A DNA stretch of 46,020 bases from Verrucomicrobiia bacterium (lineage in GTDB: Bacteria > Omnitrophota > Omnitrophia > Omnitrophales > Aquincolibacteriaceae). Under the pieces are notes generated by a model. That model saw only the letters and a program-made list of their open reading frames with translations, was not told where the DNA came from and made no database searches. The position numbers were made by a program, and so were the translations under genes. The stretch is taken from assembly GCA_035495615.1 (NCBI GenBank), contig DATJFP010000002.1:1-46020 (forward strand). Direction: 5' to 3'. Position 1 is the stretch's first letter; each line of letters starts with the position of its first letter. Below are positions 16,518-46,020 of the stretch, one piece after another.

Positions 16518-16518
16518 G

Positions 16519-18672: not shown

Positions 18673-18697
18673 AACGCCTCCTGTTGTCACCGCCGTC

Positions 18698-18931: not shown

Positions 18932-18946
18932 GACTTCTCCTCCGGC

Positions 18947-19321: not shown

Positions 19322-19329
19322 AAGCCCTC

Positions 19330-20769: not shown

Positions 20770-20775
20770 GTTGTC

Positions 20776-21897: not shown

Positions 21898-22144
21898 GTT
21901 TTACCCCGCTTTTTTATTTTTATCTACGGTAAGCCCGAACCTCGGCGGCGTCAAGCGCCCCAGCCCGAGGCGCGCGAATTTGAGGAAATCCCCGACGGCC
22001 TTTGAAAATTTTCCGGAAGAAAACCGCCTTTGGCCGCTCTCCTCATCCCTCTGCCGAACCGCTTTTCAGGGAGAGCCCGATGCTTTTTTCTTCCGGCAGG
22101 CCGATAATCTGGCGGGATACTCGATTTACCCGGAGGAGGAAAAA

Positions 22145-22846: not shown

Positions 22847-24075
22847 AACCTTTCGGACTCGCCTCAGGACTCGTGCAGGGCCGGACGGAAACAAGCCCCG
22901 AAGCGCGGCTCTGGGATTTCCTCGTGATCGGCGCGGGACCCGCGGGCTCGCTCGCGGCGCATGAACTTGCCAAGTACGGCGCGGCCGTGCTTCTCGTGGA
23001 CAAAGCGGCTTTTCCCCGCCACAAACCCTGCGGCGGCTGTTTGAGCTGGCGCGCGCTGCGGGAGCTGGAACTCTCGGGGCTCGGCCATCTGGCGCGTGAG
23101 CTCGGGGCCAAACGCCTGGGCACGCTTTACCTCGGCGCCGAAGGAAGGCGCGCGCGCATCCGCATTCCCGAAAGCGCGGGCCTGTCGCGCGAATCTCTCG
23201 ATGCCGCGCTCATCCACGAAGCCTGCGCGCAGGGCGTGACTTTCCTGCCGGAAACCAAAGGCGTTTTCGAAAAAGCGGAGGACAATGCCGCGGTCGTGCG
23301 CCTGGCCTCCGAAGGCCGCGAATTCACGGCGCGGGCGCGCATGGTGCTGGCGACCGACGGGCTGCTGGGAACCGCGCTGTCCGAATCCGAAAGCTATCCG
23401 AGCAGCGTGGCGCCGGATTCCATGGTGGGCGTTTCCACGGTGCTGGAAGCGGGCGCATCCCCCGCGGAAGAAGGAACGATCTACATGGCCTGCGGCAAGG
23501 AAGGTTATGTGGGTCTGGTGCGGCGGGAAGACGACAAGCTGGAAATCGCGGCGGCCCTGCGCCCGCAGTTTTTACGCGCGGCCGGAACGCCCGGCGCGTG
23601 CGCGGCGCTTTTCGACCAGGCAGGCTTCGACATTCCCGCAGGCCTCAAGAACGCGGACTGGAAAGGCACGGCGCCTCTCACGCGGGAACGCCAAATCCTG
23701 GCCGGACGCCGGCTTTTCATCCTGGGAGATGCGGCGGGCTACGTGGAACCTTTTACGGGCGAAGGCATTTACTGGGCTTTTCTTCAGGCGCGCGCGCTGA
23801 CTTCGCTCCTCCACTCACTGCGCTTCGAATGGTATGACGCGCTGGAAGAGGAATGGCCGCGGCTTTACGCCAAGCTCATGGACAAACGACGGCGCGCCTG
23901 CCGCGCCATGACGCGCCTGCTGCGCTTCGCGGCGTTCCGGCGCGCGGTGCTGCGCGGGCTCGGACTCATGCCATGGCTTGCAGGTCCTGTGGTGAAATCC
24001 ATTCATGGAAGCGGCCCGGAAAAAGAAACTAGCCGGCCTTACGCTGGTAGAGGACTTTCAAAAGCAGCGGCTTGA
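22843..24075 (+). CDS. FAD-dependent oxidoreductase, geranylgeranyl reductase-like
   Basis: 410 residues. FAD-binding motif: DFLVIGAGPAGSLAAHELA (about 25-43), followed by LVDKAAFPRHKPCGGCLSW, the Pro-Cys-Gly-Gly region shared with geranylgeranyl reductases and halogenase-like monooxygenases. The second FAD motif is LFILGDAAGYVEPFTGEGI (about 298-316). It starts at ATG 22843, overlapping the methyltransferase stop. The last 16 residues (about SGPEKETSRPYAGRG and the Ala tail) are encoded opposite the end of the chloride channel gene (24029-24075), so the two genes overlap by 47 bases at their 3' ends. The likely role is saturation or oxidation of an isoprenoid or polyketide chain; the substrate is unknown. 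Confidence 0.87.
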   Translation: MKPFGLASGLVQGRTETSPEARLWDFLVIGAGPAGSLAAHELAKYGAAVLLVDKAAFPRHKPCGGCLSWRALRELELSGLGHLARELGAKRLGTLYLGAEGRRARIRIPESAGLSRESLDAALIHEACAQGVTFLPETKGVFEKAEDNAAVVRLASEGREFTARARMVLATDGLLGTALSESESYPSSVAPDSMVGVSTVLEAGASPAEEGTIYMACGKEGYVGLVRREDDKLEIAAALRPQFLRAAGTPGACAALFDQAGFDIPAGLKNADWKGTAPLTRERQILAGRRLFILGDAAGYVEPFTGEGIYWAFLQARALTSLLHSLRFEWYDALEEEWPRLYAKLMDKRRRACRAMTRLLRFAAFRRAVLRGLGLMPWLAGPVVKSIHGSGPEKETSRPYAGRGLSKAAA

Positions 24076-25804: not shown

Positions 25805-25895
25805 TTTTTCATGGTAATACCGGCCTGCGGTTTAAACAAGGAAAAAATTCGGCTCACGGCCCTGCCCTAGAGATTCCTCCCGAGAAAAAGCCATG

Positions 25896-29835: not shown

Positions 29836-30122
29836 GCGCGGACTCCCAACGGAAAAAAATCTCCGCGCCGTCGATCGGGCGGATCGGCAAAGCATCCGGC
29901 TTCACCGCCCGCATTCTACCTTCAGCGCTTTAAAAAGGCCGTCATGCTTTCTCTGAAAAAGGGGTGAGGTTTTCGGGGCGGGCCCACGGATTCCCATTAG
30001 GAGCAAATGGCCTTTCCCCCGATACTGCCGCATTTTCAGCCGCTCTAGAATGCCTTCACGTGACGAGATGACATTTCAGGATGGCCGACCCGATACTGGG
30101 GAAGGCGAAGAAGGAGGAAGCT

Positions 30123-31004
30123 ATGATCGAAAAAACCAATTCAGTGACAACTTTTCGTCCCACGATAAGCTGGGGCGCTATTTTCGGCGGCTGGATCTTT
30201 GCCTATGCGTTTGCCATGCTGCTTTATTTACTCGGAGCGGCCGTCGGGGTGACGACTTTATCGGCGATGAACCGCATCGAGGGTGAAGTGACGATCGGGA
30301 CGGGCGTGTGGATGGTCGCGGCCTGGATCATCGCTACGTTTACGGGTTCGGTGATCACGGGGAGGCTGGCGGGCTTCGAAAGACGCTCGAGCGGCGCTTT
30401 TCACGGGCTGATCGTCTGGGCCTTGTCCGGAATCATGACGCTTTTCCTGGGTACCGTTCAGGCCGGGATGGTTGCCGCCGCGGGCGCAGGAGCCACGCAC
30501 GGCATCGTGCAGACGGCGCAGGGCCAGAACCTCGGCGGTCTCGGAGACGCGGCCAAGGCGGCGACGGCACGCGCTGTTTCAGGAGTGACCGGCGGACAGG
30601 TTTCCTCGGACAACATCAACCGCGCCATGAACGACCTGCAGCCTCAGGTCGCGCAGCAGGTCGCCGCGGCCATTGCCAAGGGAGACACCGAGAGCGCCAA
30701 ACGCATGCTCGCGGACAACACCTCGCTCAGCGAGCAGGATATTAATCAGATCGTGGGCGGCGTGCAAGGTAAGACCGAGCAGGCGAAGGACAACGCGGGA
30801 CGTGCCGCTGAAAAAGGCGGCGACGTGGCGAGCGCCGGGCTTTGGGCTTTCCTCATCGCGAGCCTGCTGGGCATGGGCGCGGGAGCGTGGGGCGGCGCCG
30901 TCGGTGCGACGATGGCCGTGAGAGCGTACGTGCGCGAAGGCCAGGAAGTGGAAATTTATTCCCACACGAATTACCAGGAACCGGAAGAACGGAAAGCCGT
31001 TTGA
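30123..31004 (+). CDS. Four-helix membrane protein with W-G-A-I-F-G-G motif
   Basis: 293 residues. Four hydrophobic helices are visible: about 14-42 (SWGAIFGGWIFAYAFAMLLY), 60-82, 92-122 and, after a long soluble stretch, 240-265 (LWAFLIASLLGMGAGAWGG). The opening WGAIFGG is shared with several uncharacterised bacterial inner-membrane proteins loosely annotated as PhnA-like or YrzE-like; I do not assert a family. The loop between helices 3 and 4 (about 125-235) is hydrophilic, rich in Gln, Ala and Asp, and includes NRAMNDLQPQVAQQVAAAI. I choose the ATG at 30123, with AGGAGG five bases upstream, rather than 30081. It stands alone on the plus strand, divergent from treZ. Confidence 0.75.
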   Translation: MIEKTNSVTTFRPTISWGAIFGGWIFAYAFAMLLYLLGAAVGVTTLSAMNRIEGEVTIGTGVWMVAAWIIATFTGSVITGRLAGFERRSSGAFHGLIVWALSGIMTLFLGTVQAGMVAAAGAGATHGIVQTAQGQNLGGLGDAAKAATARAVSGVTGGQVSSDNINRAMNDLQPQVAQQVAAAIAKGDTESAKRMLADNTSLSEQDINQIVGGVQGKTEQAKDNAGRAAEKGGDVASAGLWAFLIASLLGMGAGAWGGAVGATMAVRAYVREGQEVEIYSHTNYQEPEERKAV

Positions 31005-31022
31005 AGTCTTCCCCTCACCCTT

Positions 31023-31048
31023 CCCTCTCCCCGCTCGCGGGGAGAGGG
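31023..31048. terminator. Hairpin repeat between convergent genes, bidirectional terminator candidate
   Basis: CCCTCTCCCC (31023-31032) pairs with GGGGAGAGGG (31039-31048) around a GCTCGC loop, and imperfect symmetry continues on both sides (CCCCTCACCCTT and AGGGAGAGGGG). It fills the 44 bases between the membrane protein and the aldo/keto reductase genes, which converge. The CCCTCTCCCC...GGGGAGAGGG pattern is a widespread intergenic repeat in GC-rich bacteria. No U-tract, so termination is inferred from position. Confidence 0.5.
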
Positions 31049-32047
31049 TTAGGGAGAGGGGCGATTTGTTTCACGCGCGGCCGCCATTTCTTCTGCGCTG
31101 AGCGCCGGGAGATCGAGCGCGGCAAGCGCTTCCTTTAAATGAGCGCGGCGGCTGACGCCCGGGATCACGGTCGAAATTCCCGGCTGGTCCAGCACAAAAC
31201 GGAGCGCGGCCTGCGCCATGCTCCTGCCTTCCTTTGCAAGAAAGCGGAATTTCTCCGCGCGCTTTTTCCGTTCCGCGATGACTTTGGGATGGCGTGTGAC
31301 CTGGTCGGCCTTGGTATCCGACGCCCCGGTCAAAAGGCCGCGGGCAAACGGCAGTCTCGCGATAATGCCCGCGCCGGTTTGCGCGGCATGCGGCAGCAGG
31401 CCGTCCAGCGCCTCCTGATCAATCAGGTTTACCGTGACCTGCACGGGCACCGGCATCCGCTTCAGAAAATCCATCGCATCGCCCTCGGTAATGCAGGAAA
31501 TGCCGTAATGGCGCACCTTCCCTTCCCTCTTCAGCTTTTCGAGCGTCTGCCAGATTTCTTCGATTTCCAGCAGCTTCGGAGACGGGTCATGGAGAAGAAA
31601 CAGATCGACATAGTCCGTTTCCAGGCGGCGAAGCGAGGCCTCCGCGGCGCCGGCCAGATGGCGCGGCGAAAAATTCCGGTATTGGAAAAGATAGCGCGCT
31701 TCGTTGAGCGGGGCGCGGAAAGGACGCAGAAGCGGCGAGAGGAAAGACAGGCGCGGGCCCCACACCTGGCCCACGGTTCCGAGCCGCGTGTAAACGTAGC
31801 CCGCCTTGGTCGTGATGACGGCTTTGTCCCGGCGGCCTTTCAGGGCCTTCCCGATCAGCCGCTCGCTGTGACCGAGCGCATAAGAGTCGGCCGTGTCGAA
31901 GAAATTGATGCCGGCATCGAGGGCGGCCGAAAGCACGGCCAGCGCTTCCTTGTCGTCCTTATAATGGAAGCTGCCCCCCAGCGACTGGCAGCCCAGTCCC
32001 AGTTCGGTGACTTTGAGGTCGGTTTTTCCTAAAATTCTTGTTCTCAT
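31049..32047 (-). CDS. Aldo/keto reductase
   Basis: 332 residues, NADPH-dependent (beta/alpha)8 barrel. The catalytic set is in place: D51 and Y56 in NFFDTADSYALGHSE, K81 in VITTKAG and a histidine in DLFLLHDPS (near 155). GISCITEGDAMDFLKR and TVIPGVSRRAHLKEAL are the usual cofactor-side segments. It resembles the YajO/YghZ/Tas-like group. The loop after K81 (about 83-125) is expanded and rich in Arg, Leu and Phe. The start follows a weak site (GGACAAAT). The physiological substrate is unknown. It diverges from aspartase across a 148-base gap with two inverted repeats. Confidence 0.9.
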   Translation of the reverse strand: MRTRILGKTDLKVTELGLGCQSLGGSFHYKDDKEALAVLSAALDAGINFFDTADSYALGHSERLIGKALKGRRDKAVITTKAGYVYTRLGTVGQVWGPRLSFLSPLLRPFRAPLNEARYLFQYRNFSPRHLAGAAEASLRRLETDYVDLFLLHDPSPKLLEIEEIWQTLEKLKREGKVRHYGISCITEGDAMDFLKRMPVPVQVTVNLIDQEALDGLLPHAAQTGAGIIARLPFARGLLTGASDTKADQVTRHPKVIAERKKRAEKFRFLAKEGRSMAQAALRFVLDQPGISTVIPGVSRRAHLKEALAALDLPALSAEEMAAARETNRPSP

Positions 32048-32150: not shown

Positions 32151-32191
32151 AAAGGATTATAGCCGCTCCTTTCCTTTTGCTATAATCCTTT
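32151..32191. promoter_or_regulatory. 13-bp inverted repeat with divergent TATAAT boxes
   Basis: AAAGGATTATAGC (32151-32163) and GCTATAATCCTTT (32179-32191) are a perfect inverted repeat with a 15-base loop. The right arm holds TATAAT at 32181-32186 on the plus strand and the left arm holds the same box on the minus strand. The right arm ends 4 bases before the aspartase ATG. Either it is a hairpin at the very start of the transcript or a pair of face-to-face -10 elements; no good -35 is seen. Confidence 0.5.
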
Positions 32192-32195
32192 TGCC

Positions 32196-33584
32196 ATGAA
32201 AACACGCGTCGAAGAAGATTCTCTCGGCAGGAAAAGCGTGCCCGCCTCCGTTTATTACGGCGCGGAAACCGCGCGCGCGCTTGAAAACTTTCCCGTGACG
32301 GGACTGCGCTTCCACCCGGATTTCATCTGGGCGCTGGCCATGATCAAAAAGGCCTCGGCCCGCGCCAATCTCGCGCTGCGGCGCCTCGATGCCCGGCGCG
32401 CCCGCGCCATTGTCCGCGCCTGCGACGAAATCCTGGCCGGCAGGCTCGCGGATCAGTTCCCCACCGACGTGCTGCAGTCCGGGGCCGGCGTTTCCGCGCA
32501 TATGAATTTCAACGAAGTCGCGGCCAACCGCACCCTTGAAATCCTCGGCCGCAAAAAAGGCGATTACGCTTTTCTGAACCCGCACGATCACGTGAATATG
32601 GGCCAGTCCACCAATGACGTGGTGCCGACCGCGATGCGGCTTGCCGCTTACAAGCTCGCGCGTTCTTTCGGCGAGTCGTCGCGCGTTCTCGAAACGTCTC
32701 TGAAGCGCAAAGCCGCGGCTTTCCAAAAAATCGTGAAGGCCGGAAGAACGCACCTGCAGGACGCGGCGCCCGTCACGCTCGGACAGGAATTCGGAGGCTG
32801 GGCACGCCAGTTTGAAAAAGCCCGCGGCCGCGTGGAAACACTGGCGGAAAACCTCCTGGAGCTCGGCCTCGGCGGCTCGGCCGTGGGCACAGGGCTCAAC
32901 ACCACGCTCGCCTACCGCCGCAAAGTCATCGGCTTCCTGAAATCCCAGACCGGTTTCCGCTTGCGCAGCGCCGCCGACCTTTTCGAAGTCATGCAGTCCG
33001 ACGCGGACCTCGCCGCGGTTTCCGGAACGCTGCGGGATTATTCGCTTTCCCTGCTCCAGGTTTCCAATGACCTGCGTCTTCTGAGCTCCGGCCCTTTGAC
33101 GGGCCTCGCGGAAATCCGGCTGCCGCCGCGCCAGCCCGGCTCGTCCATCATGCCGGGAAAAATCAATCCGGTGATGCCGGAAGCCGCGGCGCAATGCGCG
33201 TTCCAGGTCATCGGCAACGACGCGGCGGTCGCCATGGCCGCGGGCGCGGGCCAGCTCGAATTGAACGTCATGCGTCCGGTGATCGCGCACAACCTGCTGC
33301 AGTCGCTTGAAATCCTGAAGAACATCACGCGCCTTTTGAAAATCCATTGCATCGACGGCATCACCGCGGACGCGGCGCGCTGCGAGCATTACGCGGAAAC
33401 AAGTTTCGGCATTGCCGCGGCGCTCAATCCCGTCATCGGATATTCGCAGGCCGCGGCGTGCGTGAAAGAAGCGCTGAAGACCGGCGAAACGCTGCGGGAA
33501 GTCGTGCTGCGGAAAAAACTCATGAAGCCTGCGGAACTCGAAAAAGTTTTATCGCCCGCCCATCTCACGCGGCCAAAAGCCTGA
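32196..33584 (+). CDS. aspA: Aspartate ammonia-lyase (aspartase/fumarase family)
   Basis: 462 residues. Converts L-aspartate to fumarate and ammonia. The N-terminus RVEEDSLGRKSVPASVYYGA and GAGVSAHMNFNEVAANRTLE, HVNMGQSTNDVVPTA and GRTHLQDAAPVTLGQEF are shared by the superfamily. The catalytic loop is GSSIMPGKINPVMPE (315-329). The next segment, FQVIGNDAAVAMAAGAGQLE, and the C-terminus GETLREVVLRKKLMKPAELE fit aspartases better than class II fumarases, so I prefer aspartase; fumarase remains possible. No Shine-Dalgarno is visible. TATAAT ends only 9 bases before the ATG, which suggests a leaderless or nearly leaderless message. Confidence 0.88.
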   Translation: MKTRVEEDSLGRKSVPASVYYGAETARALENFPVTGLRFHPDFIWALAMIKKASARANLALRRLDARRARAIVRACDEILAGRLADQFPTDVLQSGAGVSAHMNFNEVAANRTLEILGRKKGDYAFLNPHDHVNMGQSTNDVVPTAMRLAAYKLARSFGESSRVLETSLKRKAAAFQKIVKAGRTHLQDAAPVTLGQEFGGWARQFEKARGRVETLAENLLELGLGGSAVGTGLNTTLAYRRKVIGFLKSQTGFRLRSAADLFEVMQSDADLAAVSGTLRDYSLSLLQVSNDLRLLSSGPLTGLAEIRLPPRQPGSSIMPGKINPVMPEAAAQCAFQVIGNDAAVAMAAGAGQLELNVMRPVIAHNLLQSLEILKNITRLLKIHCIDGITADAARCEHYAETSFGIAAALNPVIGYSQAAACVKEALKTGETLREVVLRKKLMKPAELEKVLSPAHLTRPKA

Positions 33585-33651: not shown

Positions 33652-36600
33652 TTAAGCCGCGGCCTTGAGCTGCGCGGCGGTCTCGGCCTCGAGGGCAAGA
33701 CGGCTGGCCATGTACTCGAAAGCGTTGAGCGCGCCTTCGTTTTCGATGCGGATCACTCCGTTTTCGAGGCGCTGCAGGCCATGGACGGTTTTGTTCGAAA
33801 GCGCAGTCACGCCGGCAAGAAGCAGCTGCGCGGGAGTGGCGGAAGCCGCCTTCGCGATCGGCTTTTCGTCGCCGAAGCGCGCGGCATCGAGCGATTCGCG
33901 GGCCTGCGACCGGCGCAGCATGTCTTCGGGATTGGGCGCGATCACCAGATCCGCCGGGCCTTCCACGCGCAATTTGGAATCGCGTTCGGGCGCGGTAAGA
34001 ACCGCAAGGCTGCCGGAAGAAATGAGTTTGCGCGCCAGATTTCCCGAAACGCCGTTCAGCAGGCGGATCAGTTCTTTCTTGTCGTCGCGCGAATTCACGA
34101 CGAGCCGCACGCGCACGTTCCGGTTCACGATGGCCGTATTGATGGCCGCATCGATGAGTCCCTGATAAAGCGCGGACCTGTCGGCATGCTCGCGCCACGC
34201 ATCGCCCACTTGATACTCGAGCATCGCGCTTTGCTGGATCGAACGCAGAGCGGCAAGATAAGTTTCCGCGGCCGCGGTGTCTTCCTGGCTGAACTGCGGC
34301 GTTTCGGGAGCGGCATACCCCTGCGGCACGCCCAGGAGTCCCGACGCAGTCTGCAGGATCAGCGCGAGGCGTTCTCCGAAACGCGTGACGTCCGCGTCCA
34401 GGCGCGCCGTGCGGAACGCGCCGAACCTTCCAAACAAGTTTCCAAAAACGCCCAGCGGCGCGCCTCTTTCGGATTCTTTGAGCCCGAGCAGGTTGTCCGT
34501 CAGGACCGCGGCGTTCTGCACCGCTTCCTGTTCGGCTTCATCGATGCCGCGCATCACGCCTTTCCTCACCGCATCGGCCACAGCGGGCGCCGTCTGTCCC
34601 CCGGCCCTCAGCGCCTCCAAGTCCCGGGCGGCCTTCCCCGCATCAATCGCGGCGGCTCCGGTCAACGCCTGGGTCAGGCTTCGGAGTTCCGATTTCCCCA
34701 GCCAGAGTTCGTCCGCGGGCGCTTCCTTCGGCGGCTCCTGCGCCGCGGTTCCGTCGAAGCGTTGGACATTTTCCATCGTCGTTTTTTCGAAACCGGCGAT
34801 AAGTCCGAGGATTTCCTTTTTGTCTCCGCTGCGGATGCCAATGGCCTCGAGATCATTCAGCGCGCCCTCCGTGATCGCCGCACCCCCGCGGCGAAGCAGT
34901 GAAAGGGCCAAAAGCTGATAAGCGCTTCCGAGTTTCCCGGTGACGGTGGGATCGCTGACGAATTCCGAATATTCCTTTTCCCTGCCCAAGGCCCGCCACA
35001 GCGATTTTGCCCAGGCTTTCCCCATCTCGCTGGCCATGACCGGATAAATATCATTGAAGTTGTTGTCGAGGGTGGTCCCCGGCGAAAAGAAGCGCTTGAG
35101 TTCCGGAATAAAAGCGCCTATGCGCTTATTGAAATCTTTCAGCTGATCCGCGGGCAGCGCGTCGGCAAGGCGGGCGAAGACCGCGGCGGCATCTCTCCAA
35201 ACGAGAATTCCTGCCGGCGTGTTGGGAGCCGTTGCGGCTAGAAGCCTTTGGAGAATGCCGTCCAGCTTCACGAAATCCTCCGCCTTGAAATCGGCTTTGT
35301 AGCTGCGGTCGTCATGCACGCGCAGGACGGCGCTGATCACGGTAAGATACGTCGAAATTTTTTCCGGACTGAGCGCCCCGCCTTCCGTCGGCTCCAAACG
35401 GCCGACGAGGAGCCTGTAAACCGCCCCGAGATCTTCGACCCGGATGAGCGTCGACGCGAAATCGAGGGCCGAAATCCCGCTCAAACTCTGGGCGTCGGCC
35501 GGCATGTTGTCCAGATACGTCAGGATTTTTCCGCCCGCGCCGCGCATCATGTCCCGGTAACCTTCCCTTGTTTCTTCGTCCTGCGCGTAAGAATACCAGG
35601 ACGCGGCAAGCTTCAAGGCGATCTGGGCCGCGCGCGCTCTCTCGGGCGCGGCTCCGGCAAGATCCGGAAGCGCGTCCAGCCACGCGGACACGAAGGCAAG
35701 ACGCGTCTGCGGCGACAAAGATTTCGCGTAGCCGCGCCAGGTGTCGAAAATGTTATCGAGGGTCCCTGTGGCGTTCCGGGTATCTTTCAGCTGCCACTGG
35801 GTCTTGAGCGCGCCCGCGGCCGCCACGAGCGCGGGTTCCAGAGGTTTTACCAAGTGAGCGGGCCCGCCCAGCAAGGCCAGGCGCTGCGGGCGCAGGACGT
35901 TCAAGAGTTCCTCGAGCTTGATGCGCTGGAAAAGATCGTCGTCTTCGATCGACGCGGGATTTTCGAAAATCGCCTTGAGCCGTTCCGCGAGCCGGCCGAG
36001 CTCCTCGGGCGTCTGCTGGTCCAGAGTTTCGTAAAGCTGTTTGGCGGTCTCTCTCATGGCGCGGTGATTGGGGCGGCCTTTGAGCGCCAGGAATTGATTG
36101 AGCAGCGTGGTCGCAGCCGGCGTGTCGGTGCGCAATTCAGGCCGGCTGGCACCCCCAACTTCCGCTGTCAGCCAAAGATCGTCCGGCGGAGGTTCCTTTG
36201 AGGACTCAGCCGCGGCCGATGGGCCAAACCGTTTCAAATGCTCGAACGTGGCTTTTTTAAATTCGTCGACGAGACCGGCCATTTGCTTTTTATCCAGATC
36301 TTTCCGGGCGGCGAGGGAGGCCAGCTGGCTCAGCATGCCCGTCGTGACCTCACGCCCGCCGGGACCGCGCAGCCAGATGACCAGCGACGCATAGGCGCCT
36401 CCGAAGACTGAAATCAAAGAAGCTCCTTTACCATACCCCGCCGGCTTGGGCTCCTTTTCATTCCCCAGAATCCGCCACAGCGATTTCGCCCATGCTTCTC
36501 CAAGCGCGGTCGCCATCAGGTGGAAGGTAGAGTCATCACTCGAAGGCAGAGACTCGGGAGACGTATAATGACGCTGCAGCTCGGGAATCGCAGCCGCCAT

Positions 36601-39600
36601 GCGCCGGTTCAGCGCTTCCATCCTGCTCGACGGCAGCAGGTCGACCAGAACGGATTGAACGGCGGCGCTCTCTCTCCAAAGGATCAGTCCTTCCGGCGTG
36701 CCGGGAGAGACCACTTGCAATTTCTCGAGAATGCCGTCGAGGCGCGTGAAGTCTTCCTGCGTAAAATCGTCTTTGATGCCGCGTTCCGCGTGCGCCTCGA
36801 TCACCTCGTAGAGAACAGAAAGATAGATCACGCTTTTCATGGCGTCGGGAGTTTTACCCGCGGCCGCTTCGAGGCGCCCGACGAGGACCCGGTAAAATGC
36901 CCCGAGGTCCGGCATATGGCTGAACAGCTCCGGGGCCGCCAGGCCCGCGACAGCCGCATAGCCTTCCTTCGCGGCCGGCAGAAGCTCCAGATACCCAAGA
37001 AGTCTTTCCGAATCCTTGCGGATCATTTCCTGGAGGGGCACGGACGCCGCTTCGTAATCTTCGTACGGCTGCCATTCGTCGATCATGCCGAAGAAGCTCG
37101 CGAAGTTTTTGAGGCCTTCGGCCGACCCGGAAAACTCCGTGAACGCGTCGGCCCATTGGGCAGCGATGGCAAGGCGTGTTTGGGTGGAGAAAGTTTTTTT
37201 GTACCGGCGCCAGTCATTAAAAAGCCCTTTCAAAGCCAGCTCGATATTCTGGCGGTCTTCGAGCAGCGACTGCGATTTAATGACGCCCGCGGCCGCGACG
37301 AAAGCCGGATGCAGCGCCGCCGGGAGTTTGAATCCCGTCGATGCACGCGGCTGCATGGCTTTCAAAAGCGCTTCAAGCTTGCGGTTCTGATAAAACGGCG
37401 TGTCTGCGATTGACGCGGGATTTTCGAAAATCTTTTTGAGCCGGCCCCCAAGCTCTTCGAGTTCTTTCGGCTCTTGCTTATCCAGGCTGTCGAAAAGTTC
37501 CTTCAAGGCGCGCTCGCCGATTTGTCCTTTGACCAGGAACATGTCCAGCAAGAGGTTCGCGGGCATCGGCTCGGCGCGGAGTTCCGGCCGTTTCGTCTGC
37601 GTCCGCATCCACAGCTCGTCGTGCGCCGGAGGCTCCGCCGCGCTTTCTCCCGGCCGCTGCCGGGCCTGCTCATCTTCGGAAGCCGCCAGATAGCGTTCGA
37701 TCTTCGGGAACCGTTCGCCCTGAGGAGCCTGCAGTGCCTGCAAGATTTCCCGCCAGATTTCCTTCCGCCGCACGGGTTTTCCGAAGAACGCGTTTTGAAT
37801 CGCTTGGATCACCGGCCGCTCCTCCAGCACAGGCAGATCGGGCTTGCCGGTGCTCAGAAAGAAAACCAGAGTTCCCAGGACGTGGATAAAAGTGGTTTCA
37901 TTCTGGCCGCTGAAGGCCTGGAGCGCGGCATCGTCTTCCACAAGCGGCGACAAAACATCTAAAACCTTGGCGGCTTGGCCGGCAGGAAAATCTTTCGTCC
38001 GCAATACATTCCCAAGGCCGAATAGAACATTACCCATTTCTGAAGAAAGATAGTTCCGCGACGCATCCGGCGCGGCGGTCAGGGACGATGCAAGCGGAGC
38101 GATCCGTCCGGCAAGCGACAAAGCAAAGCGCGCCCGGACTTCCAAAGGGATTTCCTCAAGAGGCCACGATTGCGTGGAACTGCCAACGCCGGAATAATCT
38201 CCGGCGGATCGGCTTTCATCGAGAAACAAATCCACGGCACTCCCCAAAACCGCGGATTGGACATTGCGCCCGATGACGGTGAAAGCAAGGGTCATTTCGT
38301 TCCAAAGCGGATTGAGCCTTCCTTTCTCCGAGATTTTATCGAAAGCTTCCCGGAACACTTCCACCATGCCTGGGCCGAATTTCAGCCCTCTGGGCAGGGC
38401 CTCTTCCAAAGCATAGAGCGCCAGGGCCCATTGCCTTAAAGCTTTAAAACCTTGCGGCGTTGAAGGATCGATTTCGCGGAGTATTTGACGCGCTCCCGAG
38501 ATCAGTTCCTCGGATCCCAGGTTTCTGACAGGGACCCCCAACCTTTTGCCTAAAGCCTTGGTGCTCTCCCGGAATGCCGCCTCTGACGCTGGGGGCTCCT
38601 GCGCTATGAAGCTGGAAACAAGCTTCACAAATTCATCGTAGGCCGGCCGCTTTTGTTTGTTGAGGGGGGCCTGCTGCTCGTTGTACGTGCGCAATTCTCC
38701 GCGCAGCCACACTCCGTCGTCCGGCGCCTGATTTTCCGGCGCGGCCGATTCTTCCGCGGGCTTCTGCCGGGCCTGCTCATCTTCGAAGCCCGCCAGATAA
38801 CTTTCCAGTTTTCCGAGCCGCACATCCGGAGCGGCCTGCAGCGCTTGCGCGATCCCGCCCCAAATTTTCGCGCGCTGCGCGGACTCGCCGGAGAAGGCGC
38901 TGCGCAGCGCTCCCATCAATTGCAGATTCACGGACGGTTTCCCGTTCGCATTTCCCGTAGAGAGAATCAAAACAAGCGAATACAGGACATCGATAAGCTT
39001 ATTGTTGGGGTTGGCGCGAACCGTCTGGAAAAGAGCCTCTTCTCCGGCAAGAGGATTCAAAGAGTCCAAGATGCCGGCGGCCTGCCCGGCGGGAAATCCT
39101 TCGGCACCGGCGACGCGCCAAAGGCCGTCTAAAATATCGACGAGCTCTTCGTTAAGTTCCTTCTGCGTCACCTTGTCCGCGGGCGCGGCCAGAGCGCGCG
39201 CAACCGGCACCGCCCGCTGCGCCAGCGCCAGCCCGAGACGCGAAAGATCGGCCGGAAGCATTTTGTGGCGCGGCAGGGACTGCATGGCAAGCCCCGCATA
39301 GGCATAATTTCCGCCGGCCCTGCTTTCTTCAAGCAAAAGGTCCACGGTGCCCGCGATAATCGACAAATCGAACTTGCTGGCGATCACGGAATACGCGGCC
39401 ATAATGCTGGCCCAAAGCGGGTTCTTCGATCCTTTTTCTTTTTCCGGGATTTTGCTTAACGCTTCCCGGAACAGATCGAGAATCTCAACGCCGAAGATCT
39501 GGCCGCTGGGCATCGAACGTTCCAGGACCTGGAACGTGAGGACCCATTGGCGGAAAGCGCTGCGGCCTTCCGGCGTGGCCGTATCAACGCGTTCGAAGGC

Positions 39601-42600
39601 TTGCCGCAGCCCCGCCACAATCGAGCTAGGTTTCAATTTACGGACCGGTCCTTCGAGCTTGTTCCTAAAAGCGTCCGAGGCGAAATAAGAGCCCACTTCT
39701 CCCGGCGGAGCTTCCTGAGTCATGAATTCGGCGACAAGCTTTACAAATTCATCGTAAGCCGCCCGCTCGCCTTCCTCCGGCTGCACACGGAGCTCGCCTT
39801 TGAGCCAAAGCGTCTCATCCGGCTCAGCGGCGGCGGGAGTTTCCCCGGCAGGAGCGGTTTGACGGGTTTCGACATCGGCCAGGATGTCCAGGTATCCATT
39901 CAGAAGACCGCTCATCTTATCGGGATCGGTGACTTCTTTGAGTCTTGTAAGCAGCTCGTTCCACCGCCCGGCCCGGATAAACAACGGCTTCTCGCCGTAA
40001 CCCCGGAAGAAACTTGCGCTTTGCCTGCCGAAGAAACCCTCGAAAACATTTTTCGCCGCGTCACGATTTTCTCCGTCGATGCCGAGATCCTGGAGAAGCA
40101 ATTCCGACAGGACTTGCGCCGGCACTTCCGAAACGGTCGGCTGCGCCGCCTTCAGCGCCCGGAGATAATTGTCCCGGAAAGCCGCGCCCGGTTCCCCCTG
40201 CGGCAAACCGCGGATAGACAGCATAAATTGGCCATACGCGGCGAGCTCTTCCACATCGAAAGTTTTCGCGCTCGAAAGATAATCCCTCACCCAGGCCGCG
40301 GCGCGACGCTTAAGCTCGGCCGCGTTTTCCGGCTGCAAGGTGGTTAGGTGGCTAAAGGCTTTCATCAGGAAGGCCCGCGCATTCTGGGCCCCCGGCGTTT
40401 CGCCTTTCGCGTTTTCCAGAAGCTGCAGGACGCGCGGCGCCAGGACGCGGACGGCCGCGTCGTCTTTCGCGTTGATCACGGCGCGGTAAAGAAGGTCCGA
40501 CAGAGCGCTCTGTTCCAGGCCTCTTTCCGTCAAGGAAGCCGCGGCCTTCTCCAGCGCCTTGAGCCACGTTTCGGCAAAGGCCGGATAGAGAGAGAAATCC
40601 TTCTGCCCGCCCGGCTTTTCGTATTCCACCATCAATTCCAGAAGAAACGCGCGGTAAAAATCGCTTTTCCCCGCGCTGTTGGGATCGGAGTGATCGAGCG
40701 CGGCCAGAACGCCGGCAACCTGCGCGGCTTTGTCCACGGCTTGTGCCCGAGGAATCCGTCCGGCAAAAGCCACGGGAATGTCCGTCCAATGCTCGACCTG
40801 CCGGGAAGGCCCCGCGTACAGGACATTCACGGCTTCGTCCCACATGGCATCAAGCATCGACGCAGGCGCCGAACTAATCGTTCCATCCAGCCCCCACAAA
40901 ACCGGCACGGTCGAATTTTTATCCAAATTTTCGCGAGCCCGGGCCACGACTCTCTTGAAATCTTCGATCGACCGCAGTTCGGAAGGTTTTGCCCCGGCTT
41001 CCACCGCCGTCCAGAGATCGTCCGCGGGCGCGGGTTTTTCGGCTTTGCCCGGCTGCAGGCGTTCGGCGTCGTGCCTCAATCCCCTCGCGTATTCCCCGAG
41101 TCTCTGGATTCGCAGCGCTCTATCGTCCTGAGTTTGCTCCATGAAAGCGACGGCCTGCCGCATCACCGGCGCAATGCGTTCCCGCGCCGGACGCGCCAGA
41201 TTCGTCTTCAAGGCAGCTTCATAAATCAGGGCAAGATTATGGTTCACGTCGTCGCTCGTATCGCGCGGAGTTTCGAGGCCTTGCACGCGATAGTGGAGGA
41301 CGGCGAGAAAACGCCCGAAGGCGTTGTCGAAATTCGTATCGCTCTTCCATACCTTCTCGCCCTTTTCGTAGGCGTCATAAGCGGCGTCCTGGATAAGGCC
41401 CAGATCTTCCGGCCCTGCCCGTCTGGCCATTTCTCCAAACTCGTCGATGACATACGCCCAATTCTCGACCCGCGCTCCTTTAGCGGCCATCTCATTGGCG
41501 AGACCCTGCAAAAGGCGCACGAGTTCCGGAAACTCCGACAAGGAAATCCGGGGAATGAGATAAGCCAAGCCCGAGACCAGGCTTTTGGCGCCCGCCAGCT
41601 TTCCCGCATTCGCCGCTTGTATCGCGGCATAACCTTCCGTCCAGCGGCGCACGGCATTTTTGAGACCGTCCTCGTCCAGGCTTTGGAAAATGCGGCCCAT
41701 CGCAACCATGATCAGATCGCGGACCTGCTCGGACAGCCAATCGTTTCCTTTGACCGCCTGCCAGGAAGCCATCAGCGTTTCCGTCGTGGCCGCGCGTTCT
41801 TCACCGCCCTCGTCATCCGGCAGCCCGACCAGGGCGTAGGCAAGTCCGTACCAGTAAGCGTTGAGCTGGTCTTCCGACGTCCAGGGGCGGCCGAACCGTT
41901 CGCGGATTCCCGCCATCGCGGCCGGGACATGTTCCGGCAGGATCTGGTGAAAAACGGCTTCCGTCTCCTGGCTGAAGTTGCTGGCGATCGTCGATACGGG
42001 TTCTCCGGGCTCGAGGTCTCTGACCATGTCTTGGAACATTTTGTCGAGCTCCGCCAAAGCATCGTCGGCGGTCCGGGTCCGCATCTCCGAATGCTGCGGC
42101 TCGGCATCCGCCGCCCACAGCCAAAGCGTTTCGTCAACCGTGCCTTCTCCGGGTCCGGGCTTGGTCTCGGCCGCCGGCTGCCCGCGCGTGACGGAATCGT
42201 TTTGTCCTCCCACGAATTCCGCGACTTTTCCGCGGAAAATTTCCGGCGTCGCCGAGCTTTCCGCAAAGGCCAGAAACTGGGCAAAACGCGCGGGCATTTC
42301 CGCCGTGTTGGTCTTCGCGCCTTCCAAAGCCGGGAAAAGAGCTTCGGCCAGCATGAGCTCCACGAAACGATTCGCCATGCTTTTCTCGATTTTGCCCTTT
42401 TGCATGAGAATGCCGGCAAGGACGTGGACCATGTAACGCCGCGCTTTGTTCTCCTGCTTTCCGGTGGGCGAACCTTCCATCTTCCGCCAGGCTTCGAAAA
42501 TGGCGTCGACGTACGGCTGCAGATCCGACAGTTCGGCGATGGAGAGGGCGCGGCCCAGCACGAAAACCAAAGCGCTGCGGGCCTTGTGGGCTGGCGCCGC

Positions 42601-45600
42601 AATCCCGTCAATGGACGTCAGAAGATCTTTCAGGACCGGGGCCAAGCCGGCCATCGCTTCGCGGAAACGGACTTCCGCGTCTCCGTCGATCGGCGGATCC
42701 GTCATAAGATTTTTGAGAACCTCATGCGCCGCTTCGTAAAATCCGAAATGCGCTTCGGTCTCTCCGCGCATCCGGAAAAGCACGCGCCCCAGGGCCGCGG
42801 CATAGTCCGCATAGGCGTCCTTCCCGAGCGCCTTCACGCTTTCCGACAGCGCGAATGCGAGCCCGCGGCCCGCCTCAGCCGCCTCCACCGATCCACCGTC
42901 GAGCTCTTCCAGTTTTTTCAAAATACTTGCCGACAAATCCACGCTTGCGAACGGAAGGCTCGACAGCGATTGATACAGGGCATCGCCCAGGGCGGCCAGT
43001 GCTTTCAACCCTTCGGGTGTTTTGGCATCGGTTCTTCCAAGGGCCTCGGCAAAAATACGCCCGGGCTCGCCCTTCACTTCGTCGCTGGGCCCGAAGGCAT
43101 GCGCTCCGGCTTCGAGCGCTTCCGCAATGCCTTCCACAACGACAAGGTCGGCAGGCGCTTCCGCGAGCAGCGCGAGAAGCCGTTGATATGCGTCCCGCTT
43201 TCCTTCGCCGCTCAGGCTCCGGCCCAAAATCAGCGGCAGGGCCTGGGCCGTTTCGCGCCGGAACGCGGCTTCGGCGGGAGAAGCTCCTTTGTAAGTCTCG
43301 AGGTCCTCCACCAGCACCCGGCTCGTTACATTGTAAATTTCGGGAATGAGTTTCGTCGTCTTTCCGGACTCTTTCAGCACGCGCAGAAGGCCGGACCGCG
43401 CCCGGAAAGAAAGCTCGCTGCGGTCCTGCATGCGTTTTAACTGCGCCGTGGCCGCCGCGATCGCCTGGCGCAGCGTAGTCTGCGCCTGCAGATCCTTTTC
43501 CCGGACGGCCGTGCCCGTCTGTCCGGGGTGCTCCTTGAGAGCCTCGACAGCCTCTTCGGCCCGGAGGGACAATTCAAACGCGATTGCGAGACGCGTGCGG
43601 TGCGATTCCTTGTCCTCTTTCGTAACCGCTTCCAGCGCGAGCACGAGCTGCGAAGCATCCATGCGCGAGTAGGGCGTGGCCTTGACGTCTTCGTCCTCAT
43701 CTCCAAAAATTGCGGCCCTGAGCTCGTTTCTTCTCCGAGTCCAAATACCGTCATCGGGCACGGCATCTTCGGAGACACCTCCGGATTTGCCGGACAGCCG
43801 GGCCATGTCGTCCTGCAGCTTTTTCAGATAGTCGCCCAACTTCCGTCCGCGCGACTCCGCATCCGCCGCGGGCCCCATTTCATGCAGCAAATCTTCCCAT
43901 TTTCCGGCATAAGCAAACAGGCCGACAGCCTTGTCCGTGTCCGGCGGCGCGGCGACTTTCGAAAAGAGGGAGCGCGCGGAAGGCAAAATCTCGTCTTCCT
44001 GCACTTCATCCAGGCCGAGATCGGCGGCAAGCATGCGCGCCAGCGTTTCCGGGATGCCGCTTTTCAAGGCCTCGGCATTTTTCCGCGACGCGTCGAGCAT
44101 GAAACCGCGCGCGAGAAGCCGCTCGTCTTTGCCCATGGAGGCGTAAGCATACCCCAGGATATCGACGATCATGACCATGTCCGGAGAAGCGAGCTGCTTG
44201 TCCAGGTCCGTCATGATCTGCCGCATCTGCGCCAGGGCCCAATTTCCGGCGCGGCGCAGCACCTCCGGGTCCCTGTCCGTAAGCGTAAGCGCATAAGAGA
44301 GTCCGTTCGCGATTTCCGCACGGGCGATTTCGGCCTTGGACCGGTCCGCGGACATTTTTTCGAGGAGGCTGATCATGCGCGCCGTAAGCCCCGGAATGGA
44401 CGGATGATTTCCCGCATAACGCAATCCCAGGTTCACAAACCCCGCAAGAAGGCCGAGCTTCTCCTCTTCCTTCCAGTCGCCTTTTGCCGCGGCCTGTTCC
44501 ACGGCCGTAAGCGCTGTGTCGGAGGCGAGGAGGGCCAGGTCATGATCCCCAAGGTTCATCACCAGGCCATTCACATATTCCACGGTCAGCTCCGATTGCC
44601 CGGCATAGCCGGCAGCCTTCGCATCGAGGGCTTGCAGGGCGCCGATTTTCCGCCTTGCCAAACTCTGCGCATTCAGATCGTGCGCGCGGCTTGCGAGCTG
44701 CCGCACGACGCTGAGCAGCGTAGGATGCAAGGACGCGTCAAGCGCCGGAGGATTTAGCAGGAGGTCATCCAGGAACGCTTCATACTTTTCGCCGGGCAGC
44801 TGCGGCACCAGGTTGAGCAGTTCCCGCAGCAGCGCGTTTTGCTGCTCGACCTTTCCGGCCCCCGCTTCGCGCAGGCTCCGGACGATTTCCGCAGCGCGCA
44901 TTTCGGCGTGCAGCCAGACGCCGTCATCAGGCGCCGGCTTTTCTTCGGCCTTGCCGGTCTGGCGGTTGAGTTCGTCGCGCAGCGTCCCGGGAAGTTCCGC
45001 AAGCCTTTGACCGCGCACCTGGGCGGTGCTGGCTCCCTTAAAAATCGCGATAAGGTTCGGCATGAAGTTATCCATCGCGAAAGGCGTTTTCTTGCCGTCA
45101 TCCGAAGTCACGGCGAAAATCAAAGCCAGCTGCTCAAGAATTTTATCTCCTTCACCGCCCTCGCGCAGATTCTGCTCGTCCACGAAAGCCTGCATGTAGG
45201 CGGTCGCAAGCCCGACGCGCATGAGCTGGGCATCCTTGGTCGTCCCCCGGACACTTTCAAGCAGGTCTTTGAGCTCCGCCATCATCGCGATCCGGTCCTC
45301 GCGTCTGAATGCCGGCCGCGCCACGATCTTTCCCAGCCCTTGAGCGGCCTGACGCAGGGTGAGCTCGTCATAGCCGGTCCCCTTTACCGCCTGCAGGAAT
45401 TCGACATGGGCATCGGCGAGCTTTTTGAGATCGGCGCCCGACATCCGGATCGACATGTCGGCCGTGAACGCGATCAATTCTTTCGTGCGGTTCATGTTCG
45501 CCGGCGCGAGTTTGATTTGTTCCAGAAGAAAATCCAGGGCCCCGCTCAGATCGGATTCCGGCAGGCTCCGCTTTCCAAGCTCGACAAGCGCACGCAGCCA

Positions 45601-46020
45601 ACGCTGCCGGGTGTAGGGCGCGGAGTCGCCTTCGATTTTGCCAAACGCCTTGCGAATGACCGCGAGGAGCCCGGGATATTCCAGGTTCGAGCCGTCCACG
45701 ACGCTGCCGTGATAAAGCAGGTTTGCTTTCGCCATGGCGTCGAGCACATTCCCCCAGCGGCCGATGTCCCTGGCGCCCTCACGGAAAGAATCGCGGCCGG
45801 AGATGGAATCGAGAATGGCCTCGTAATCTTTGACGAACGCCGCGCCGAACTTTACAGGATCGGGATCCTCGCTTTCATAAGCCGCTTGATACAAGGCTTC
45901 CGCGAGTAAATATTCCACGTCCTCAGTCACCGGCACGCCCTGCCGGCCCTGCATGTACATCTCCATCATTTGCCGCGGCGTTTTGCCGGCAAAAGGATTG
46001 TTCTCTTCGGTCCTCAGTTC
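33652..46020 (-). CDS. Giant ELR-module protein, partial at N-terminus (at least 4122 aa)
   Basis: The frame is open from the right window edge to TAA at 33652, 4122 residues (numbered here from the edge), and the true start lies outside. I read no cysteine in the whole length, no signal or membrane segment, and almost pure alpha-helix composition rich in Ala, Leu, Glu, Arg. Ten short linkers divide it: a Pro/Ala/Glu-rich stretch, an acidic-x-Trp core (PDDGVW, PDDGIW, VDETLW, PADDLW, PDETLW, PPDDLW, PADELW), then E-L-R or E-M-R. These ELR tripeptides start at residues 1, 373, 766, 1312, 1681, 2076, 2442, 2813, 3295 and 3778. The modules between are 345-546 residues long, and neighbours 6/7 and 8/9 are clear duplicates. 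No known domain recognised. Similar giant genes are known in Omnitrophota. Exported scaffold or polyprotein is inference. Confidence 0.9.
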   Translation of the reverse strand, partial: ELRTEENNPFAGKTPRQMMEMYMQGRQGVPVTEDVEYLLAEALYQAAYESEDPDPVKFGAAFVKDYEAILDSISGRDSFREGARDIGRWGNVLDAMAKANLLYHGSVVDGSNLEYPGLLAVIRKAFGKIEGDSAPYTRQRWLRALVELGKRSLPESDLSGALDFLLEQIKLAPANMNRTKELIAFTADMSIRMSGADLKKLADAHVEFLQAVKGTGYDELTLRQAAQGLGKIVARPAFRREDRIAMMAELKDLLESVRGTTKDAQLMRVGLATAYMQAFVDEQNLREGGEGDKILEQLALIFAVTSDDGKKTPFAMDNFMPNLIAIFKGASTAQVRGQRLAELPGTLRDELNRQTGKAEEKPAPDDGVWLHAEMRAAEIVRSLREAGAGKVEQQNALLRELLNLVPQLPGEKYEAFLDDLLLNPPALDASLHPTLLSVVRQLASRAHDLNAQSLARRKIGALQALDAKAAGYAGQSELTVEYVNGLVMNLGDHDLALLASDTALTAVEQAAAKGDWKEEEKLGLLAGFVNLGLRYAGNHPSIPGLTARMISLLEKMSADRSKAEIARAEIANGLSYALTLTDRDPEVLRRAGNWALAQMRQIMTDLDKQLASPDMVMIVDILGYAYASMGKDERLLARGFMLDASRKNAEALKSGIPETLARMLAADLGLDEVQEDEILPSARSLFSKVAAPPDTDKAVGLFAYAGKWEDLLHEMGPAADAESRGRKLGDYLKKLQDDMARLSGKSGGVSEDAVPDDGIWTRRRNELRAAIFGDEDEDVKATPYSRMDASQLVLALEAVTKEDKESHRTRLAIAFELSLRAEEAVEALKEHPGQTGTAVREKDLQAQTTLRQAIAAATAQLKRMQDRSELSFRARSGLLRVLKESGKTTKLIPEIYNVTSRVLVEDLETYKGASPAEAAFRRETAQALPLILGRSLSGEGKRDAYQRLLALLAEAPADLVVVEGIAEALEAGAHAFGPSDEVKGEPGRIFAEALGRTDAKTPEGLKALAALGDALYQSLSSLPFASVDLSASILKKLEELDGGSVEAAEAGRGLAFALSESVKALGKDAYADYAAALGRVLFRMRGETEAHFGFYEAAHEVLKNLMTDPPIDGDAEVRFREAMAGLAPVLKDLLTSIDGIAAPAHKARSALVFVLGRALSIAELSDLQPYVDAIFEAWRKMEGSPTGKQENKARRYMVHVLAGILMQKGKIEKSMANRFVELMLAEALFPALEGAKTNTAEMPARFAQFLAFAESSATPEIFRGKVAEFVGGQNDSVTRGQPAAETKPGPGEGTVDETLWLWAADAEPQHSEMRTRTADDALAELDKMFQDMVRDLEPGEPVSTIASNFSQETEAVFHQILPEHVPAAMAGIRERFGRPWTSEDQLNAYWYGLAYALVGLPDDEGGEERAATTETLMASWQAVKGNDWLSEQVRDLIMVAMGRIFQSLDEDGLKNAVRRWTEGYAAIQAANAGKLAGAKSLVSGLAYLIPRISLSEFPELVRLLQGLANEMAAKGARVENWAYVIDEFGEMARRAGPEDLGLIQDAAYDAYEKGEKVWKSDTNFDNAFGRFLAVLHYRVQGLETPRDTSDDVNHNLALIYEAALKTNLARPARERIAPVMRQAVAFMEQTQDDRALRIQRLGEYARGLRHDAERLQPGKAEKPAPADDLWTAVEAGAKPSELRSIEDFKRVVARARENLDKNSTVPVLWGLDGTISSAPASMLDAMWDEAVNVLYAGPSRQVEHWTDIPVAFAGRIPRAQAVDKAAQVAGVLAALDHSDPNSAGKSDFYRAFLLELMVEYEKPGGQKDFSLYPAFAETWLKALEKAAASLTERGLEQSALSDLLYRAVINAKDDAAVRVLAPRVLQLLENAKGETPGAQNARAFLMKAFSHLTTLQPENAAELKRRAAAWVRDYLSSAKTFDVEELAAYGQFMLSIRGLPQGEPGAAFRDNYLRALKAAQPTVSEVPAQVLSELLLQDLGIDGENRDAAKNVFEGFFGRQSASFFRGYGEKPLFIRAGRWNELLTRLKEVTDPDKMSGLLNGYLDILADVETRQTAPAGETPAAAEPDETLWLKGELRVQPEEGERAAYDEFVKLVAEFMTQEAPPGEVGSYFASDAFRNKLEGPVRKLKPSSIVAGLRQAFERVDTATPEGRSAFRQWVLTFQVLERSMPSGQIFGVEILDLFREALSKIPEKEKGSKNPLWASIMAAYSVIASKFDLSIIAGTVDLLLEESRAGGNYAYAGLAMQSLPRHKMLPADLSRLGLALAQRAVPVARALAAPADKVTQKELNEELVDILDGLWRVAGAEGFPAGQAAGILDSLNPLAGEEALFQTVRANPNNKLIDVLYSLVLILSTGNANGKPSVNLQLMGALRSAFSGESAQRAKIWGGIAQALQAAPDVRLGKLESYLAGFEDEQARQKPAEESAAPENQAPDDGVWLRGELRTYNEQQAPLNKQKRPAYDEFVKLVSSFIAQEPPASEAAFRESTKALGKRLGVPVRNLGSEELISGARQILREIDPSTPQGFKALRQWALALYALEEALPRGLKFGPGMVEVFREAFDKISEKGRLNPLWNEMTLAFTVIGRNVQSAVLGSAVDLFLDESRSAGDYSGVGSSTQSWPLEEIPLEVRARFALSLAGRIAPLASSLTAAPDASRNYLSSEMGNVLFGLGNVLRTKDFPAGQAAKVLDVLSPLVEDDAALQAFSGQNETTFIHVLGTLVFFLSTGKPDLPVLEERPVIQAIQNAFFGKPVRRKEIWREILQALQAPQGERFPKIERYLAASEDEQARQRPGESAAEPPAHDELWMRTQTKRPELRAEPMPANLLLDMFLVKGQIGERALKELFDSLDKQEPKELEELGGRLKKIFENPASIADTPFYQNRKLEALLKAMQPRASTGFKLPAALHPAFVAAAGVIKSQSLLEDRQNIELALKGLFNDWRRYKKTFSTQTRLAIAAQWADAFTEFSGSAEGLKNFASFFGMIDEWQPYEDYEAASVPLQEMIRKDSERLLGYLELLPAAKEGYAAVAGLAAPELFSHMPDLGAFYRVLVGRLEAAAGKTPDAMKSVIYLSVLYEVIEAHAERGIKDDFTQEDFTRLDGILEKLQVVSPGTPEGLILWRESAAVQSVLVDLLPSSRMEALNRRMAAAIPELQRHYTSPESLPSSDDSTFHLMATALGEAWAKSLWRILGNEKEPKPAGYGKGASLISVFGGAYASLVIWLRGPGGREVTTGMLSQLASLAARKDLDKKQMAGLVDEFKKATFEHLKRFGPSAAAESSKEPPPDDLWLTAEVGGASRPELRTDTPAATTLLNQFLALKGRPNHRAMRETAKQLYETLDQQTPEELGRLAERLKAIFENPASIEDDDLFQRIKLEELLNVLRPQRLALLGGPAHLVKPLEPALVAAAGALKTQWQLKDTRNATGTLDNIFDTWRGYAKSLSPQTRLAFVSAWLDALPDLAGAAPERARAAQIALKLAASWYSYAQDEETREGYRDMMRGAGGKILTYLDNMPADAQSLSGISALDFASTLIRVEDLGAVYRLLVGRLEPTEGGALSPEKISTYLTVISAVLRVHDDRSYKADFKAEDFVKLDGILQRLLAATAPNTPAGILVWRDAAAVFARLADALPADQLKDFNKRIGAFIPELKRFFSPGTTLDNNFNDIYPVMASEMGKAWAKSLWRALGREKEYSEFVSDPTVTGKLGSAYQLLALSLLRRGGAAITEGALNDLEAIGIRSGDKKEILGLIAGFEKTTMENVQRFDGTAAQEPPKEAPADELWLGKSELRSLTQALTGAAAIDAGKAARDLEALRAGGQTAPAVADAVRKGVMRGIDEAEQEAVQNAAVLTDNLLGLKESERGAPLGVFGNLFGRFGAFRTARLDADVTRFGERLALILQTASGLLGVPQGYAAPETPQFSQEDTAAAETYLAALRSIQQSAMLEYQVGDAWREHADRSALYQGLIDAAINTAIVNRNVRVRLVVNSRDDKKELIRLLNGVSGNLARKLISSGSLAVLTAPERDSKLRVEGPADLVIAPNPEDMLRRSQARESLDAARFGDEKPIAKAASATPAQLLLAGVTALSNKTVHGLQRLENGVIRIENEGALNAFEYMASRLALEAETAAQLKAAA
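33655..34689 (-). other. Distinct C-terminal module of the giant protein
   Basis: Residues 3778-4122 follow the last ELR and do not resemble the other modules. After a helical part (ALTGAAAIDAGKAARDLEAL) comes a segment with alternating strands and helices: RNVRVRLVVNSRDDKKELIR, LISSGSLAVLTAPERDSKL and GPADLVIAPNPEDML. This looks like a small alpha/beta fold rather than a solenoid repeat. It ends in a helical Ala-rich tail. The constant C-terminal place suggests a terminal domain used for targeting, anchoring or enzyme activity; none of these can be shown from sequence. Confidence 0.6.
34690..37584 (-). repeat. Tandem duplicated modules 8 and 9 of the giant protein
   Basis: Module 8 (37584-36139, residues 2813-3294, 482 aa) and module 9 (36138-34690, residues 3295-3777, 483 aa) are almost equal in length and align throughout: IFENPASIADTPFYQ against IFENPASIEDDDLFQ, STQTRLAIAAQWADA against SPQTRLAFVSAWLDA, LGAFYRVLVGRLEAAAG against LGAVYRLLVGRLEPTEG, DFTRLDGILEKL against DFVKLDGILQRL, and GEAWAKSLWRILGNEKE against GKAWAKSLWRALGREKE. 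The last stretch is the best conserved. Confidence 0.85.
37585..39795 (-). repeat. Tandem duplicated modules 6 and 7 of the giant protein
   Basis: Module 6 (39795-38698, residues 2076-2441) and module 7 (38697-37585, residues 2442-2812) align along their whole length: AYDEFVKLVAEFM against AYDEFVKLVSSFI, TPEGRSAFRQWVL against TPQGFKALRQWAL, LFREALSKIPEK against VFREAFDKISEK, VDLLLEESRAGGNY against VDLFLDESRSAGDY, FPAGQAAGILDSLNPL against FPAGQAAKVLDVLSPL, and LESYLAGFEDEQARQ against IERYLAASEDEQARQ. Identity is moderate, so the duplication is old. Confidence 0.85.

Follow-up and report, generated by a model that had tools for sequence, protein, structure and literature searches.

The window analysed here is a stretch of 46,020 nucleotides that makes up the whole of contig C2 in the genome of an uncultured Omnitrophota bacterium (3.16 Mb in 106 contigs), and its subject is the giant open reading frame (ORF) that fills one end of it. 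In the labels used below G000 is the window's own genome, other G numbers are its relatives and C numbers are contigs. The frame lies on the minus strand at 33652-46020. It is a single frame of 4,122 codons without a stop, closed by a stop codon at 33652-33654, as an earlier reading of the letters alone (the original prediction) had claimed. Because the window is a complete contig, the open 5' end of the frame is an assembly end. The assignment of the DNA to the Omnitrophota was also right. The frame and its ten segments are as follows.

33652-46020, minus strand: cysteine-free open frame of 4,122 codons and a stop codon, truncated on its 5' side where the contig stops.
44905-46020, minus strand: alpha-solenoid module, amino acids (aa) 1-372, beginning with ELR at the contig edge (module-family comparison).
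43726-44904, minus strand: alpha-solenoid module, aa 373-765 (module-family comparison).
42088-43725, minus strand: divergent segment, aa 766-1311, of which the end alone matches the module profile.
40981-42087, minus strand: alpha-solenoid module, aa 1312-1680 (module-family comparison).
39796-40980, minus strand: alpha-solenoid module, aa 1681-2075 (module-family comparison).
38698-39795, minus strand: alpha-solenoid module, aa 2076-2441 (module-family comparison and fold model).
37585-38697, minus strand: alpha-solenoid module, aa 2442-2812, a duplicate of the aa 2076-2441 module (40% identity).
36139-37584, minus strand: second module type, aa 2813-3294 (all-against-all comparison).
34690-36138, minus strand: second module type, aa 3295-3777, a duplicate of the aa 2813-3294 module (40% identity).
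33655-34689, minus strand: C-terminal domain (CTD), aa 3778-4122, ending -KAAA (shared with other giants; fold model).

The frame carries coding signals, with a GC content of 0.70 at third codon positions against 0.44 at second positions. Its duplicated modules are under purifying selection, the ratio of nonsynonymous to synonymous differences (pN/pS) between them being 0.64-0.72. No membrane helix is predicted in the frame. The earlier statement that it holds no recognisable domain was borne out, as no segment has a Pfam or NCBIfam match above cut-off. Great length and repetition could point to nonribosomal peptide or polyketide synthases, to adhesin repeats, or to a pseudogene or assembly artefact. 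The first two were the families against which the original prediction was to be checked; neither condensation, adenylation, carrier and ketosynthase domains nor Ig-like, cadherin and other annotated adhesin domains were found in the Pfam and NCBIfam searches of the frame. A pseudogene or artefact is opposed by the uninterrupted frame, its coding signals and the presence of related C-terminal pieces in other genera. All of these explanations are scarcely credible.

The ten segments, which had been described as ten modules with conserved separators, are indeed set off by ten separators, but they are not ten of a kind. All-against-all comparison places six of them in one degenerate family of approximately 370-aa modules. 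The region of aa 2813-3777 is a pair of approximately 482-aa modules of a second type, and the divergent 546-aa segment matches the module family only in part, at its end (42121-42525). The last segment of approximately 345 residues is a distinct CTD outside the module family. Structure prediction, which had been suggested for every module, was run on one (aa 2076-2441). The model is an irregular alpha-solenoid of 16 helices with a predicted local distance difference test (pLDDT) score of 82. The separator scores below 50, and for this reason it is read as flexible. Against the Protein Data Bank (PDB) the model gave weak HEAT/TOG-like matches (best Foldseek E 0.017; template modelling scores 0.37-0.42). 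Like HEAT/TOG-type solenoids the module is all-helical and irregular, but it has no Pfam match to HEAT.

The separators of the window frame are ELR or EMR tripeptides, located as follows.

46012-46020, minus strand: ELR (RSExR-type), aa 1.
44896-44904, minus strand: EMR, aa 373.
43717-43725, minus strand: ELR, aa 766.
42079-42087, minus strand: EMR, aa 1312.
40972-40980, minus strand: ELR, aa 1681.
39787-39795, minus strand: ELR, aa 2076.
38689-38697, minus strand: ELR, aa 2442.
37576-37584, minus strand: ELR, aa 2813.
36130-36138, minus strand: ELR, aa 3295.
34681-34689, minus strand: ELR, aa 3778.

Thus the edge of the window does fall on a separator, as had been noticed, and the suggestion that more modules lie upstream is very likely right. 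All ten E[LM]R tripeptides of the frame are at separators, and shuffles of the protein contain a mean of 3.3 (P = 0.001). An acidic-x-Trp stretch precedes the nine separators that are not at the contig edge. The combined pattern acidic-x-W..ELR has 18 overlapping starts, compared with a mean of 0.35 and a maximum of 7 in 3,000 shuffles. The acidic-x-Trp...ELR separator proposed originally is therefore present in the window, but its form in relatives is RSE[VLMAI]R or RAE.R, and R-[SA]-E-x-R (RSExR) describes it better. The acidic-x-Trp part was seen in G000 and G004 and is a local addition in modules of this type. Judged by sequence, ELR is the local form of a motif that belongs to a whole family of giant proteins in this order.

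This motif was not chosen beforehand. RSE.R is the most enriched pattern with four of five positions fixed in the giants (99 against 2.5 expected), and R[SA]E.R occurs 371 times in 52 giant frames of the order (286,425 aa), against 19.6±4.0 in shuffles. It lies at domain boundaries, with a median spacing of 319 aa; only one of 148 occurrences falls inside a recognised domain where 16 are expected. Of ten matches in control ORFs on the same contigs, nine belong to fragments of giants that a gap or a contig end has truncated, and one lies elsewhere. The motif is absent from all seven giants outside the order that carry the QDAH domain described below, and from one inside it (G030). The flanks carry almost no information while the core is kept across genera, so that the core alone is conserved. 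The residues of the motif are retained although their codons vary freely, which indicates that it is kept as protein; a DNA-level recombination site was disfavoured on the same ground. The motif might still be a relic left by the shuffling of modules, a preferred site of fusion that has no function today. The modules are duplicated and shuffled, and near-identical tandem linker cassettes (ASSAEGVLGAGLKGARPELR) are found at aa 8948-8990 of the C14 frame of G000, with a related one near aa 4319-4345. However, neither the retention of residues despite free codons nor a core kept across genera without conserved flanks fits a relic, and we consider this improbable.

The giants were compared across 47 genomes of this order and 384 genomes of the phylum. 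Where its start is intact, a giant opens with a hydrophobic segment and a domain that we name QDAH after its [IV]QDAH stretch; the hydrophobic segment precedes QDAH in 38 of 40. QDAH has no Pfam or PDB match and is present in all 47 genomes of the order and in 169 of the 384 of the phylum. A profile scan of named genomes returned 62 loci, 61 of them titled Omnitrophota; the same kind of scan with the window protein returned no match. G000 has 28 QDAH frames, which take up approximately 11% of its genome, or approximately 13% by arithmetic if pieces without a head are included. One contiguous frame of 23,964 aa (72 kb; G000:C88:18416-90307, minus strand) has a QDAH head, no cysteine, an -SA end and 23 membrane-like segments.

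At the other end, 14 of the 47 genomes of the order have the CTD, located terminally or almost so in frames that are mostly giant (the longest 13,125 aa), and a first-profile search of the 384 genomes found the CTD only in this order. A 3,234-aa frame of G014 was considered as a member, but the alignment was not supportive and it was removed from the profile. In the model of the CTD the alpha/beta core is predicted with confidence and there is a C-terminal helix; comparison with the PDB gave no significant match. Profile searches of the PDB with the module, the CTD and QDAH returned either no match or only designed helical proteins and weak matches due to chance. Three consecutive giant frames of 13,125, 4,771 and 9,339 aa in G041 (C53:17354-99640, minus strand) each have a QDAH head and a CTD tail. 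Of the frames taken to end at a stop codon, 35 of 40 have [SA]A as their C-terminus, compared with 2 of 64 control ORFs. Three of the five exceptions resemble interrupted frames (G004:C61, G031:C6, G033:C28) and two end in MA.

Cysteine makes up 0.05% of the motif-bearing giants, 0.5% of giants outside the order and approximately 1.2% of control ORFs. A QDAH giant inside the order that lacks the motif (G030:C71:9642-33632, plus strand) has a normal cysteine content (82 residues, 1.0%). Cysteine loss and the RSExR motif seem to go together. The cargo of the giants is diverse and includes APH, ABC1 and protein kinases, M48 peptidase, methyltransferases, an AAA helicase, HATPase, Nudix, metallophosphatase and alpha/beta hydrolase domains. 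Giants with unrelated cargo share the head, the joint, the C-terminal residues and the cysteine loss, and some have the CTD in common. The window frame shows the joint, the cysteine loss and the C-terminal traits of this family, with its ten separators, no cysteine, a -KAAA end and a CTD shared with giants of the order; its hydrophobic segment and QDAH domain would lie beyond the contig end, as the comparison of C44 below suggests.

The modules of the window frame also occur on contigs C103 and C33, both of which are open from end to end, and on C44. The ends of C44 and C33 overlap exactly over 141 bp. C44 begins with a stretch that matches a QDAH giant of G004 at residues 605-771, and aa 1634-5580 of the C44 frame form a block of approximately 3.9 thousand residues that resembles midasin, with six Walker A motifs (six AAA modules) and a metal ion-dependent adhesion site (MIDAS) motif, DESGSM. 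The match of C44 to midasin chains has an E value of 8.5e-96. The block is 45-53% identical in G031, G012 and G004. In G004 it is interrupted by one in-frame stop (G004:C61:32133-32135), either real or a sequencing error. In four genera (G000, G004, G012, G031) the motif is found where the block starts and again beyond it, but never in its interior. The window frame itself contains no midasin-like AAA modules or MIDAS motif.

Since modules and the midasin-like block occupy the same frames in G004, G012 and G031, the window frame most likely forms the last part of a midasin-like giant that would measure at least 14.4 thousand residues and extend across C44, C33, C103 and C2. This link comes from comparison of genera and not from contig overlap, and the joined C44-C33 pair, C103 and C2 could instead belong to different giant genes, the window tail then being unrelated to the block. 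C103 and C2 have no overlap partners in the assembly, G000 has 28 QDAH frames to choose from, and an earlier guess at linkage proved wrong: C14 (10,559 aa) was thought to run into the window frame and was ruled out by an exact 141-bp overlap with C31, with which it ends at approximately 11,020 aa. C14 and C31 together form a sister giant of 33 kb. Separate genes are nevertheless rather unlikely, as within G000 the module type is strong only on C103, C2 and C33, with C44 and C14 weaker, and shares frames with the midasin-like block in other genera.

The explanation that we tentatively favour is that the window frame is the tail of an exported, cysteine-poor, multi-domain giant that is made as one precursor and cut at its RSExR joints. 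The full protein would consist of a hydrophobic export segment and QDAH, several modules, the midasin-like block, the run of alpha-solenoids and the CTD, with the motif placed in flexible joints between the units. The chain would be exported whole, its conserved C-terminus (CTD, -[SA]A) may be recognised as a sorting or maturation tag, and cutting at the joints would release separate units. A shared head, joint, C-terminus and cysteine loss despite unrelated cargo are most simply read as a common path of export and maturation with cutting. Cysteine loss is a familiar trait of proteins that pass through the periplasm in an unfolded state. MARTX-type multi-effector toxins and viral polyproteins are likewise long chains of several units released by cutting between them; the giants would work in a similar way by analogy and are not members of either group. 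The MARTX-type embedded cysteine protease domain gave no Pfam match in C2, C14, C64 or C44.

Several points weigh against this explanation. No physical link connects the window frame with the QDAH and midasin-like parts, and the cutting itself is something that we infer. No candidate protease was found: the arginine-specific C11 and C25 families were ruled out because both are absent from all 47 genomes of the order, C11 being absent from 77 genomes in all. The hydrophobic segment could be an anchor and not a signal that is cleaved. Outside the cell, kinases, methyltransferases and AAA motors would be odd, as they depend on adenosine triphosphate (ATP) or S-adenosylmethionine; this points either to delivery into another cell or to an anchored instead of a secreted protein.

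A serious rival, and a real possibility, is that the giant stays whole as a megadalton scaffold or mechanoenzyme, an AAA ring with an alpha-solenoid arm, in which RSExR would not be cut but would link units flexibly or let a partner dock. The midasin-like block in what is probably the same gene, the solenoid arm suggested by the module model and the lack of a known protease are consistent with it, and an extracellular coat formed by a giant has been proposed (PMC10066038). However, the same joint is found between unrelated enzymes in giants without the AAA block and so is not specific to a scaffold, and a docking site leaves the cysteine loss unexplained. A broader form of the precursor explanation is a bacterial polyprotein system. 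In this, dozens of exported giants nearly free of cysteine (approximately 13% of the genome) would be cut at RSExR by a lineage-specific protease to release batteries of effectors, including a midasin-type mechanoenzyme with its alpha-solenoid arm. We regard a system of that scope as doubtful.

The original prediction of an undescribed system holds in that the giant is modular and matches no known family, but it is not isolated. According to Seymour et al. 2023 (PMC10066038), giant ORFs (>20 kb) are common in Omnitrophota, one of them being that of 39,678 aa in V. archaeovorus. The window piece alone is 12.4 kb and is truncated at the contig end. As far as the available text of these sources goes, such ORFs are described as poorly conserved and of obscure function, with a suspected part in cell-to-cell contact (PMC10066038, PMC12057145, PMC12419801). 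They resemble our giants in phylum, size, few annotated domains and suspected role, but no conserved head, tail or joint motif is described in the portions of PMC10066038 covered. The V. archaeovorus giant is reported to have 42 membrane helices, whereas none is predicted in the window frame. In the gigantic Omnitrophota proteins of the lipocone study (PMC12419801), too, membrane segments share a chain with mixtures of methylases, peptidases and signalling enzymes; the available text of that study names the domains and has no RSExR joint, QDAH or CTD.

Midasin (Rea1/Mdn1) is a motor of eukaryotic ribosome maturation. The C44 block, and not the window frame, shares its six Walker A motifs and MIDAS, but it comes from a bacterium, where it forms part of a larger QDAH-type giant and has RSExR on either side, and it would be joined to the window only through the proposed link. 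One paper (PMC7203096) mentions midasin and Omnitrophota, so bacterial midasin may have been noticed earlier. In the giant-ORF literature, within the text available, the motif, QDAH, the CTD, the -[SA]A ending and the midasin-like block are not described. We found no paper on RSELR in Omnitrophota in a coverage limited to sources other than preprints (such as West-Roberts et al. 2023, cited in PMC12057145). The giant ORFs are already known, and within these limits the architecture of head, joint and tail has no earlier description. These conserved parts make the function of giant ORFs testable. Among the questions are whether polyproteins are made and exported by bacteria, which enzyme would do the cutting and which products reach which recipients. 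If bacteria have a midasin-like machine, that would also be relevant to how this protein, known from eukaryotes, arose.

The giant frame is adjoined by a 410-aa ORF with no Pfam match (32157-33389). Ordinary genes at 13494-32047 of the window encode a glycogen debranching enzyme, alpha-amylases and an aldo/keto reductase.
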